Shown: piece after piece, positions 2,006 through 12,111 of the stretch
How the letters are laid out: the number at the start of each line of letters is the position of its first letter
Position numbering within the stretch: position 1 is the stretch's first letter
Assembly (NCBI GenBank): GCA_904420245.1
Contig: CAJFUL010000009.1
Location: 1-41,896 of the forward strand
Length of the DNA: 41,896 nt
DNA from: Candidatus Paralachnospira avium
GTDB lineage: Bacteria; Bacillota; Clostridia; Lachnospirales; Lachnospiraceae
Reading direction: 5' to 3'
The notes under the pieces: model-generated
Seen by the model: only the letters and a program-made list of their open reading frames with translations
What the model was told of the DNA's origin: nothing
Database searches by the model: none
Position numbers and translations under genes: made by a program

Positions 2006-3838
2006 CTATGAAAAAAATTGTTCTTTCAGGATCAAATAACCCTGTTTATCATATTTAGAAGAAAACAGACCCTTAAAGCCTCTGTGCTCCGCCTTTTCGA
2101 TGGCGTCGTCGATCATGGCCCTTGCCGACTCCTCAGAAAAGGCCGCGCCGTCATTTCTCATCCTCTCGGCCGCCGCGTACATGGCCATCTTTGCCATATC
2201 GTCGATGACGCACTCCTCCGACTGGGCATACGCTTCCGCCGCCTCGATGAAATCTTCCAGACTCATCTGGCCGTCCTCTTCCAGATAGACGCAGAGCTCA
2301 TCCAGATCTTCATGGGAGACCAGAAGATCCTCGATCTTCTCCGGAGAATCCACCAGGATCACCACCATGGAAGCCCTGGGATGCCGCAGCTCCTTCACCA
2401 GCCCGGACACGGCGCGTCCATTTAACTGACCGGCTCTGTCAATGATCAAGTCCCGGCCCGCCAGTTTTTCAAAGATCCCCGAGATCTCCTTCGTATTCAG
2501 CTTTCCCGCGGAGATCTTGGCCGCCTGATTTGCGGGAAGCCCCAGGATCTCATGGGTCTTTTTCAGGCTCTCCACCGCAGCGGCTATCCGCTTATCGTCC
2601 TCGGCAGCTTCCACCACCACGCAGGTGATCTGAAGCTCCTGCTCTTCTTCCGGCTCCTCCGGCAGCTCTGCCGCTGCTTCTTCCGCCATCTCCTCCGACA
2701 CCGTAGCCGCCAGGGCTGCCGATACTTCATCGACCAGCTCCCTCGTATTCCCAAAGTCCTGAGCAGGCTGCTCTTCCGGCTCCTCCTCAGGGACTTCCGG
2801 CTCTTCATGAGGCTCTTCCTCCGGCTGCTCCTCTTCCGGTTCAGGAGACGGAGCAGTTTCCTCCTCCTGTACGGTCTCTTCTTCCCGCGCGGGCTCTGTC
2901 ACATCCGGCAGCTCTTCCGTCGCAGACATATCATCCCTGGGCAGAAACTCCTTTGTCTGCCCCATATCGTCCTCTTCCGCGGCTTCCTCTTCCTCAAAAG
3001 CCTCTCCGGCCTCCTTAACAGCCTGAGCCAGATCTGCCTGTATATCCTGCAGCTCCGTATCCGGAAGCGGGACATCTCCTTCCATGACCGCTTCCTCTGT
3101 CATAGCCGCCTCTTCCAGGCCTTCCTCCTCCAATGTGGGCTCTTCCTGATTCTCCGGAGCCTCCAGGGTCTCCTGGGAATATTTCTCTTCAAATTCCCGC
3201 TCGACAGCCTTGATCCGCTCTTCAAACTTCTTCTTATTTACCAGCTTCTCCTGCTGGGAAGGCGTCAGCGGCTCATACTGCATCTTCAGGTTCAGAGCCT
3301 TGTCCACATAAGGGCCTACGCTGAACCAGAGGATGATCTCATTGCAGAGCTGGACACATTCTTTTTCCCAGCCGGCTTTGTGATACAGATAAGCCAGCTC
3401 ATAAGCCCACTTCTCTTCAAACTCGTTCTTCCGGTACAGCTCCAGGATCGTGATCAGCTTTTCTATGGGGGCTCCCTTGGCCGATTCGATCTGATATGCC
3501 AGGATCAGCTTGCTGATGTCATTGGGCGCGATCTCCTGAAACTCCTCAAAAAACTCCTCCGCTTCATCCAGATTTCCGGCTTTTACGCACAGCTCCGTCA
3601 GCTTATAGAGCATGCGGCGTCCCACGGGGACTCTTTCATAGGCCAGCAGAAGGACGTTTTTCGCATCTGTATAATTCTGGATCTTTTCATAAATCTGAGA
3701 GACCAGAGTCAGCATTTTGATATTTTTTACCCGGCTCCAGTCAATGGTGTCCGCGATCTTCGCCGCAGTCGCATAATCCTTTTTCTCAGCGTGCTTTCTT
3801 ATCTTATCCTCTTTGATACTTAATTCATACTTGTCCAC
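2006..3838 (-). CDS. TPR protein with acidic linker and degenerate AAA+ domain
   Basis: Encodes 610 residues in three parts. Residues 1-200 are helical repeats of TPR type (for example LTLVSQIYEKIQNYTDAKNV). Residues 210-395 are a very Glu/Pro-rich low-complexity linker. Residues 402-605 look like a degenerate AAA+ domain of the SpoVK/CbbX type: a beta strand and helix where the P-loop should be but with no GKT, a Walker-B-like RDLIIDRAGQL (462-472), then MVVILVDSPEKIEDLL (490-506), which parallels the VVVILAGYPEEME stretch of that family, and a lid-like tail. It probably acts as a non-hydrolysing scaffold (inference). The start is GTG with AGGTGA 6 bases upstream. It heads the operon with the HAD and CvpA-like genes and has its own promoter at 3882-3910. 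Confidence 0.85.
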   Translation of the reverse strand: MDKYELSIKEDKIRKHAEKKDYATAAKIADTIDWSRVKNIKMLTLVSQIYEKIQNYTDAKNVLLLAYERVPVGRRMLYKLTELCVKAGNLDEAEEFFEEFQEIAPNDISKLILAYQIESAKGAPIEKLITILELYRKNEFEEKWAYELAYLYHKAGWEKECVQLCNEIILWFSVGPYVDKALNLKMQYEPLTPSQQEKLVNKKKFEERIKAVEREFEEKYSQETLEAPENQEEPTLEEEGLEEAAMTEEAVMEGDVPLPDTELQDIQADLAQAVKEAGEAFEEEEAAEEDDMGQTKEFLPRDDMSATEELPDVTEPAREEETVQEEETAPSPEPEEEQPEEEPHEEPEVPEEEPEEQPAQDFGNTRELVDEVSAALAATVSEEMAEEAAAELPEEPEEEQELQITCVVVEAAEDDKRIAAAVESLKKTHEILGLPANQAAKISAGKLNTKEISGIFEKLAGRDLIIDRAGQLNGRAVSGLVKELRHPRASMVVILVDSPEKIEDLLVSHEDLDELCVYLEEDGQMSLEDFIEAAEAYAQSEECVIDDMAKMAMYAAAERMRNDGAAFSEESARAMIDDAIEKAEHRGFKGLFSSKYDKQGYLILKEQFFS

Positions 3839-3977: not shown

Positions 3978-4011
3978 AAAAAAGAAAGGGCGATGCTGCC
4001 CTTTCTTTTTT
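3978..4011 (-). terminator. Strong intrinsic terminator of the noncoding RNA
   Basis: A perfect 14-bp stem (3978-3991 with 3998-4011) with a 6-base loop contains a GGGC/GCCC core flanked by A and T runs, so it can terminate in both directions. On the minus strand the stem ends in TTTTTT. It separates the noncoding unit from the TPR operon. Confidence 0.9.
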
Positions 4012-4677
4012 ATGATTATAAAGTTGTTTTTCTTTTTTATGAATCGAAGGAATTCTTGTGATACCTTCCTGTCCCGCCCTTTTCAAATTGTACTTAGCCT
4101 ACGGTTTCTAACGTCAACTTCCAATACCTTGACGTTTCTCTTCCATTACCTGCATACACTTTGATCTTTCTTTTTCCTAAGCTGAAAACTCTATGATCCT
4201 CAATGGCGGTATCACATCTGATCCGATCTTTCTCTTCGATTTGTATATTTTCATATACGGATTCGGATACTTACGACTTTTACTGATTCTCTATATCAAG
4301 AAGGCGATTCCTACAGGAACTCTCTGCCATCTGCTGAGAATCATATTGAGTTTTCAGCTTTGAAGCTTCACTGTCCAGTGGACTCTCCTCCTTTCCATTT
4401 TCCATGTCAGCAATTCTTCCAGACCCTTTATTGACGACCTTACACGATCTTGTCGTGTAATACATCTCTCTTGTTTGGAGAAGCTTTTTTCGTCCATCAG
4501 CCGGTATGTCTAATTTTGATTGATATTCCTATCACATCTCCACTGACTCCTGTCACTCTCTGGATCGATTTTACCAGATCAGATTTCTTTACATCTGTTC
4601 TGTTATCCAGAATCCTTTCTCGTCAGATTCTTTCGCTGCTTCTTTGTCTTGAAGATTTGCTTGTGTTTCTTTGTTGT
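3978..4677 (-). ncRNA. Large structured noncoding RNA (about 700 nt; ROOL-like candidate)
   Basis: A consensus promoter at 4684-4712 and the terminator at 3978-4011 bound a roughly 700-nt unit with no credible coding frame. The RNA is A/G-rich, unlike the GC-rich genes around it, and full of perfect inverted repeats: a 12-bp long-range stem (4348-4359 with 4180-4191), nested in it an 8-bp stem (4336-4343 with 4284-4291), an 8-bp hairpin (4129-4136 with 4110-4117), a 7-bp hairpin (4453-4459 with 4441-4447), a 6-bp hairpin closed by a GAAA tetraloop (4253-4258 with 4243-4248), and 5-6-bp stems at 4626-4631/4609-4614, 4593-4597/4580-4584, 4574-4578/4559-4563 and 4263-4268/4221-4226. Size, ornate folding and host group fit the ROOL class of giant RNAs, known from Firmicutes, but I cannot check the consensus; GOLLD, OLE or a new class are alternatives. 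The longest reading frame inside (61 codons, 4280-4465) looks accidental. Confidence 0.8.
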
Positions 4678-4683
4678 GTCTTT

Positions 4684-4712
4684 ATAATAGCACGCAATCT
4701 TTTTCTTGTCAA
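4684..4712 (-). promoter_or_regulatory. Promoter of the large noncoding RNA
   Basis: Minus strand TTGACA (4707-4712), 17-base spacer, TATTAT (4684-4689), with TGC forming an extended -10. Predicted start is an A near 4677. An A/T-rich stretch upstream (4713-4790) could act as an UP element. The near-consensus elements predict strong constitutive transcription. Confidence 0.88.
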
Positions 4713-11848: not shown

Positions 11849-12111
11849 CCGCACGCCCTGCGTCGAAAGACTCACCGCAAACGTTACCTCTACAGCCTGC
11901 TCGGCCCAGGCTGCCTCGCGGCACACAGACGGTCCTGCTTAGTGCTGCTCCATTCCTGGCCTGACACGGTTCACAGGGGCCTGTTGCGCAAGACCCAGGC
12001 TTCAACGCCGCTTATAAAGGGCAGCTTCACAGCTTGTGATCCTCGGCAGGGCATCACCCCTGCTATAGCGGATTGCAGGTACAGGACACCGCTAACTCCC
12101 CGGCTGTGCGG
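11849..12111 (-). ncRNA. ffs: Signal recognition particle RNA, large bacterial (Firmicutes) type
   Basis: The RNA component of the signal recognition particle, which with Ffh targets membrane and secreted proteins. The minus strand carries the domain IV core GTGTCAGGCCAGGAATGGAGCA (seen at about 11940-11970) with the GCAGCACTAAGC tail, and the Alu-domain segment near the 5' end (GGTGTCCTGTACCTGCAATC and CGCTATAGC). The ends pair, CCGCAC (12106-12111) with GTGCGG (11849-11854), giving 263 nt, right for the large Firmicutes form with an Alu domain. It lies directly downstream of tadA, as in other Firmicutes. Confidence 0.95.

Follow-up and report, generated by a model that had tools for sequence, protein, structure and literature searches.

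A large, pseudoknotted RNA of Lachnospiraceae with a conserved short reading frame over its central helices

According to excerpts of PMC12286853, the large ornate RNAs of bacteria fall into only a few known classes, and those studied best still have poorly understood functions. The solved ROOL RNA is a complex molecule of 659 nt with multiple pseudoknots and, in the same excerpts, no known protein partner, while many GOLLD RNAs exceed 800 nt and have a conserved 3' region and a less conserved 5' region. Phages and prophages carry ROOL and GOLLD, frequently close to tRNA islands; these two RNAs, like OLE, assemble into homo-oligomers (PMC12286853). For ROOL the assembly is a homo-octameric nanocage. 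An RNA survey of the human microbiome describes, in the excerpt available, 3161 candidates of 27–219 bp (PMC8040213), so pieces of the Lachnospiraceae RNA described here could be among them. Literature searches covering open-licence PMC papers, supplements aside, returned no description of such an RNA.

Other structured RNAs contain a reading frame of their own. RNAIII of Staphylococcus aureus is a long structured RNA that acts in trans and has an embedded ORF of some 26 codons. The tmRNA is structured and pseudoknotted, has a short internal frame, and its gene can serve as a phage integration site.

The RNA described here is encoded on the minus strand of the window, by which we mean the whole 41,896-nucleotide stretch of Candidatus Paralachnospira avium that was analysed. 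The initial annotation had proposed an ornate RNA of large size, transcribed from its own promoter and ended by its own terminator; the stable fold and the covariation reported below support that proposal. The consensus promoter with an extended −10 element is present as described: a −35 element TTGACA (4712–4707) is separated by a 17 nt spacer from a −10 element TATTAT (4689–4684) that is preceded by TGC. The intrinsic terminator is also where it had been placed (4011–3978). Transcription between these two signals would give an RNA of 700 nt (Table 1), and the A/G-rich composition attributed to it amounts to 64% A+G. Its predicted minimum free energy is −185.9 kcal/mol, with a z score of −6.47 against 150 dinucleotide shuffles, none of which folds as low. 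Removing the last 40 nt leaves a z score of −5.89 (150 dinucleotide shuffles), and a smaller control with 20 shuffles gives −8.76 for the RNA. The long-range stem, reported as a perfect helix of 12 bp, exists and reads as 13 bp (AAGCUGAAAACUC/GAGUUUUCAGCUU). The stem nested within it, reported as 8 bp, likewise exists and has 10 bp, one of them G-U. The GAAA-capped hairpin is found at 4258–4243.

Table 1. Features of the RNA locus in the window (positions count from the first letter of the window)
Feature	Position	Strand	Basis
Sigma-70 promoter TTGACA-N17-TATTAT, extended −10	4684..4712	-	sequence; TTGACA at the same place in 11/11 species
700-nt RNA	3978..4677	-	start inferred from promoter, end from terminator
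5' domain, 7 helices	4430..4645	-	95.7% of cells paired; 19/49 pairs doubly changed
Hairpin with conserved 13-nt CUGACGAGAAAGG	4609..4631	-	stem 100% paired, 4/7 pairs doubly changed, n = 10 sequences
Hairpin with conserved 8-nt loop GUAAAGAA	4580..4597	-	genus alignment; similar loop 3' of core in other genera
GGAGG, Shine-Dalgarno-like	4387..4391	-	frame comparison
Short ORF, CTG start, 32 codons + TAA, over 5' strands of central helices	4280..4378	-	
13-bp long-range helix, 5' strand	4348..4360	-	partner 4191-4179
Nested helix, 5' strand	4335..4344	-	partner 4202-4193
Core helix 5' strand AUCCGA	4263..4268	-	partner 4226-4221
Pseudoknot 5' element AAUCGAAG	4234..4241	-	motif comparison across copies
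Core helix 3' strand UCGGAU	4221..4226	-	genus and other-genera alignments
Nested helix, 3' strand	4193..4202	-	sequence and genus alignment
Long-range helix, 3' strand	4179..4191	-	sequence and covariation
Pseudoknot 3' element CUUCGAUU	4042..4049	-	motif comparison across copies
Intrinsic terminator	3978..4011	-	sequence; fold

The initial annotation had tied its reading to conservation in related genomes, and matches are found in 11 of 11 species of the genus, the window's own included. The other ten are 74–84% identical over the matched part, which in seven species comprises about positions 6–599 of the 821-base query. TTGACA lies upstream of the RNA in all 11 species. Towards the 3' end, all 10 copies that are not cut by a contig end share a conserved element with a run of T after it. 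The complete copies (n = 10) span 688–925 nt; the promoter is conserved and the terminators differ in sequence. The 13-mer CUGACGAGAAAGG is invariant in the 11 species. A scan of 84,980 species with one double motif of the genus returned only the ten other species of the genus. Among the carriers in this genus is a named strain of the family Lachnospiraceae, Fusibacillus kribbianus YH-rum2234. One locus, L020, is part of the genus member G002.

The alignment of homologues and the search for covariation that had been suggested have been carried out. In an unconstrained alignment of the 11 transcripts, RNAalifold predicts 110 pairs, 31 of which show double-sided compensatory change. The central domain (alignment A2, 11 sequences) has 95.0% of its cells paired and 11 of 51 pairs doubly changed, and the 5' domain (alignment A3, ten sequences, L032 excluded) gives the values in Table 1. 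For four of the five covariation measures, no shuffle out of 500 matches the observed value in A2 or in A3. The fifth, further pair types, is reached by 2 of 500 shuffles in A2 and by 366 of 500 in A3, where it is no better than shuffling. Sliding the partner by 1–3 columns lowers pairing in A2 and A3 to 31–53%, a control that is lenient because both structures were derived from the same sequences. The core helix AUCCGA/UCGGAU is invariant in the genus, and invariance alone is uninformative on pairing. The compensatory changes support the predicted fold.

The first DNA, pattern and covariance-model searches gave a reading restricted to the genus. R1, a covariance model covering the central domain, found three genus members and one distant match when run on 397 family genomes. 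When 40 genomes were then searched, it matched all three from a second genus, g305, that of the distant match; their copies have the same promoter, motifs, terminator and downstream TPR gene as those of the window's genus. Because the RNA and the TPR gene recur as neighbours, the regions upstream of the TPR gene were examined in 139 genomes of other genera (19 + 120; four regions cut by contig ends). A recognisable copy of the RNA is present in 19 of the 139 regions, recognised by a table of motifs and by reading the regions that stood out. In many of the remaining regions, recR or another gene ends near the start of the TPR gene.

A second covariance model, R2, was built from 14 copies in 14 genera, with the window's genus and g305 excluded and three helices defined by the authors. 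In the alignment of these 14 sequences (A6), 92.6% of cells are paired and 12 of 22 pairs are doubly changed, while 27–39% of cells pair with a slid partner. Four of the five measures are reached by 0 of 500 shuffles, and further pair types beat shuffling only partly (22 of 500). In the core helix, 2 of 6 pairs are doubly changed and 78.7% of cells are paired. A6 omits L127, which is short, and L046–L048, L080, L085, L098 and L167, which are too divergent for MAFFT; parts of L178 and L185 are shifted in it. Another alignment, A5 (17 sequences), was too misaligned for counts, and the R1 alignment A4 was kept out of the counts as well. Covariation has been found in two sets without shared members: the species of the window's genus, and 14 sequences that each represent another genus.

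R2 recovers the window RNA at the correct place (4183–4347), weakly (24.6 bits, E 0.0026 over 100.7 kb), and other members of the genus score 12–23 bits (12–25 bits for the genus overall, also weak). L046, L047, L098, L085 and L127 match at E 5e-4 to 9e-10. Two of the 19 TPR-upstream copies, L080 and L167, are assigned by motifs and place only, with R2 scores of 11.5 and 13.9 bits (E 1.3 and 0.42). Across the 397 family genomes and at E ≤ 0.01, R2 matches 60 genomes, which represent 52 of 334 genera; 59 of these genomes also pass E ≤ 5.2e-5, and the model had been built from 14 of the 60. The three members of the window's genus included in this search, which was run with stricter filters, are not matched. 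Among 295 genomes drawn from the order there are 5 matches, all in the family Lachnospiraceae. The genus-restricted reading has thus been overturned by the TPR-upstream regions and R2: the carriers total about 56 genera, including the window's genus, g305, G280 and G177, with two more that are tentative (G026 and G309). Several candidates have been dropped, namely a pattern match in G257 (L056) in apparently protein-coding sequence, pattern matches on nine IMG/VR contigs without R1 support (one match at E 4.2), and L049–L051 (R1 E 0.55–0.87). R1 found nothing in L012, L013 and L017, and L012–L022 are weak, mostly AT-rich matches on the promoter side.

The carriers share a common anatomy. From 5' to 3', it consists of the promoter, an A-rich start, a variable 5' domain, AGGAGG, a mini-hairpin of three or four pairs, the long-range and nested helices, a small hairpin, the core helix, the pseudoknot elements and the terminator; hairpins with 8-nt loops also belong to it. 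In several carriers the variable 5' domain has a hairpin with the loop GACGAGAA. The core helix is AUCCGA/UCGGAU in the window, AACCAG/CUGGUU in L081 and AUCCAG/CUGGAU in L213. Relative to the core, the hairpin with the loop GUAAAGAA sits on the 5' side in the window's genus and on the 3' side elsewhere, so modules have moved. At L167 (G309), three successive GGAGG/mini-hairpin/start modules are found at about −720 to −560 upstream of the TPR gene, and at L046, at about 2130, a second GACGAGAAAGG motif lies between the promoter-like site and the start of the TPR gene.

A pseudoknot is predicted from the element AAUCGGAG inside the core helix, which can pair at 8 positions with CUCCGAUU close to the 3' end. 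Both elements are present in 49 of 55 copies, eleven of the 55 being from the window's genus. At least 7 of the 8 pairs are formed in 46 of the 55, with GAAG/CUUC in the window's genus and GGAG/CUCC in most others; these counts are supportive only, because regular expressions fix part of both motifs and the best candidate pair was taken. A pairing of AGGAGG with the 3' CUCC motif was considered and dropped on an informal comparison, since AAUCGGAG–CUCCGAUU has 8 pairs and more covariation.

The initial annotation saw no credible gene in this region and overlooked a conserved short reading frame. AGGAGG (GGTGG in g305, AGAGG in L127) is followed at start-codon distance by NTG, mostly with GAC after it. 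The frame from this NTG is open for 25–40 codons in 17 of 21 genus representatives. Mononucleotide shuffles (1000) leave a mean of 2.0 and a maximum of 8 representatives open, equal openness is found at 11% of the remaining start positions in these RNAs (1397/12536), and other offsets are open in at most 8 of 21, the frame's own in-register offsets set aside. A Shine-Dalgarno-placed NTG with 25–36 codons is found in 31 of the 34 R2 loci read (12 of these genomes are already among the 21 representatives). The exceptions are L229, which is cut by a contig edge, and L248 and L249, which are without the Shine-Dalgarno/start motif. As the genera are related, these ORF statistics overstate independence. 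The start codons of the 31 loci are TTG (16), ATG (12) and GTG (3), and CTG takes this place in L098 and in all 11 species of the window's genus. The long-range and nested helices both have their 5' strands within the frame, whose stop codon in most cases falls a short way ahead of the core helix. The frame is short or lost in four of the 21 representatives (L123, L127, L080 and L167) while the RNA otherwise persists, so translation is not always needed. In two g305 copies, L046 and L047, the frame goes out of register within the ORF.

The amino acid sequence of the frame shows no sign of purifying selection, synonymous counts being near or below neutral. Synonymous single changes number 43 of 182 in nine species of the genus (41.7 expected) and 1 of 26 in three close relatives (6.3 expected). 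In the first QY-anchored set they number 84 of 297 (71.2 expected), slightly above neutral, which a weakly constrained peptide could explain. In the 31 R2 loci, the counts are 243 of 1137 around QY (264.7 expected), 60 of 313 near the frame end (68.1 expected), and 93 of 883 and 44 of 797 in the variable codons (239.1 and 178.4 expected). The single differences in the codons before QY are distributed as 323/428/132 over the three positions, the third varying least. This is the reverse of ordinary coding, and neither coding nor plain RNA constraint explains it. The five frame peptides tried have no match in Pfam or NCBIfam. An outright rejection of the middle frame on the basis of nonsynonymous changes has been revised to a frame that is kept open while its sequence is unconstrained. 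A conserved open frame had been named in advance as evidence against a structured RNA; the ~30 codons and the Shine-Dalgarno sequence are indeed conserved, and the codons are without protein-level constraint. Because the frame covers only ~100 of 700 nt and lacks such constraint, it adds to the RNA reading and does not refute it.

Based on these observations, we propose, with about even confidence, that the locus represents a new class of large, independently transcribed, pseudoknotted, trans-acting, ribosome-engaging and translation-gated RNA of the Lachnospiraceae. Ribosomes would engage the RNA through AGGAGG and the NTG-GAC start. A ribosome translating the frame of ~30 codons would hold the central helices open, and these would close when the ribosome is idle or absent. 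Since the frame and the 5' strands of the central helices share nucleotides, we infer that translation and folding must compete, and two alternating states would be expected in the cell. That the entry signal is conserved and the product is not suggests that the important step is the entry or passage of ribosomes, and the identity of the encoded peptide would be irrelevant. The most likely role would be that of an RNA or RNP, bound by ribosomes or gated by translation, that adopts its active fold according to ribosome traffic. A narrower proposal, which we put forward tentatively, is that evolution has kept the act of translation and not its product: a ribosome would enter at the internal Shine-Dalgarno sequence, unzip the central helices and stop before the pseudoknotted core. 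If this is true, the RNA works as a switch driven by ribosomes or as a translation sensor. The CTG carried throughout the window's genus is a poor start and argues against the part assigned to the ribosome.

The main rival is a purely noncoding ornate RNA, a scaffold or homo-oligomer like ROOL, GOLLD or OLE, in which the open frame would be a by-product of RNA constraint, and AGGAGG and the UCC-NNN-GGA hairpin would be RNA motifs. We regard it as possible but rather doubtful. The lack of visible amino acid selection and of a full frame in four representatives is what such an RNA would be expected to show. The pairing of the mini-hairpin is also kept in most representatives (UCC/GGA, GUCC/GGAC, CCC/GGG), L123 excepted, and loops rich in purines would lend themselves to A-minor contacts. 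A by-product of RNA constraint does not readily account for the 25–40 open codons of frame 0 in 17 of 21 representatives when offsets outside its own register reach at most 8. It also leaves unexplained why all 31 R2 loci that have the motif begin the start codon with T, A or G, though C was allowed as well, and why the ORF stays at 25–36 codons despite a variable length from start to core.

An mRNA for a real peptide of ~30 aa with long structured untranslated regions appears improbable. The well-spaced Shine-Dalgarno sequence, the conserved length and a QYVSG(M/T)A...SS pattern that recurs in most other genera would agree with a peptide, but the recurrent residues fall in RNA helices and motifs, synonymous changes are not enriched, the searches with five of the peptides are empty, and most of the ~700 nt covaries as structure outside the ORF.

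The genes around the RNA bear on the choice between a cis-acting leader and a trans-acting RNA. In the window, TPR, HAD and Colicin_V genes lie on one side and azlCD, recR, ybaB and dnaX on the other. Across carriers the order is dnaX-ybaB-recR-(azlCD)-RNA-TPR-HAD-colV, variously reduced, and in G005 none of these genes is near the RNA. The RNA had been described as lying in a core region beside azlCD and outside a prophage; the adjacency to azlCD holds, and for the second part the ten neighbouring proteins scanned include no phage protein. A leader of the TPR gene or of azlCD is, in our judgement, very unlikely. The TPR gene does lie downstream of the RNA in 4 of the 11 genus species, in three g305 genomes and in 19 of 139 regions of other genera. 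However, the RNA has its own terminator, the TPR gene has its own promoter-like site, and azlC is divergent. In 7 of the 11 species the TPR gene is on another contig. Six of these seven show what lies downstream of the RNA, and no TPR gene is seen there; the contig of the seventh, G003, breaks off within the RNA. No fixed downstream gene shares the transcript, given the terminator and the differing downstream neighbours. As its own promoter and terminator and the differing neighbours within the genus make a cis role unlikely, a trans-acting RNA is favoured on these sequence features.

Two side observations concern the neighbouring genes. The TPR gene (2006–3838 in the window) and its orthologues have open frames of 314 to 2474 aa among those listed, some of which may be cut by contig ends. 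In L250 (1–1860) and L218 (G247), a phage-type integrase gene (Pfam Phage_integrase, E 6e-7) is found directly where the RNA terminator should begin, as judged against L213; therefore, the 3' end of the RNA seems to serve as a prophage integration site. The left edge of the viral contig starts at the ATG of the short frame.

Rfam holds a ROOL covariance model, and the search for ROOL, GOLLD, OLE and raiA proposed at the outset has been run. Around the RNA, it returned 14 matches at E ≤ 10, all far below gathering scores and none to these four classes, and at 20 homologous loci it returned only three microRNA models at E ≤ 0.5, far below gathering scores. The sole match at gathering score in the 41.9 kb is the large SRP RNA at 11849–12111. 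ARAGORN finds 0 tRNA and no tmRNA in the window. Phage and plasmid records have no match for L178, the one relative searched. A very divergent ROOL, GOLLD, OLE or raiA RNA missed by the Rfam models, to which the similar size and ornateness might point, is the least probable explanation given these empty searches, the lack of tRNAs in the window and the chromosomal genes around the RNA. Of the alternatives offered by the initial annotation, a ROOL-like RNA or a new class of similar scale, membership of ROOL is not borne out, and no Rfam family matches the RNA at gathering score.

The RNA sits among chromosomal genes in dozens of genera of one gut-bacterial family, and its conserved ribosome-entry frame offers a direct handle on the function of giant bacterial RNAs, whose role becomes testable. 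In comparison with ROOL, as excerpted from PMC12286853, it is alike in size, complexity and pseudoknots. ROOL is borne by phages and prophages, whereas the present RNA lies in a chromosomal recR-TPR neighbourhood, has no Rfam match and carries a conserved Shine-Dalgarno-led ORF. The large size and the conserved 3' and less conserved 5' regions are a likeness to GOLLD, which, in the same excerpts, is encoded in phages and prophages, while the RNA described here is without a match to its Rfam model. OLE is similar as a large structured RNA of Gram-positive anaerobes, as far as the source excerpts describe it, and differs in the same lack of an Rfam match.

Like tmRNA, the RNA is structured and pseudoknotted and has a short frame in its interior. 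Neither ARAGORN nor Rfam finds a tRNA-like domain with a tag frame here, and the frame of this RNA has a Shine-Dalgarno sequence and a start codon. The dual-function RNAs, with RNAIII as the example, share the long, structured RNA, here proposed to act in trans, with an embedded ORF. As in these, a conserved Shine-Dalgarno, start and stop frame lies within the structured RNA, lost or short in 4 of 21 representatives as noted. A peptide under purifying selection, expected of a dual-function RNA, is not indicated by the codon comparisons. In contrast to RNAIII, the ORF here overlies strands of the central helices, and what is conserved is the frame and not the peptide sequence.
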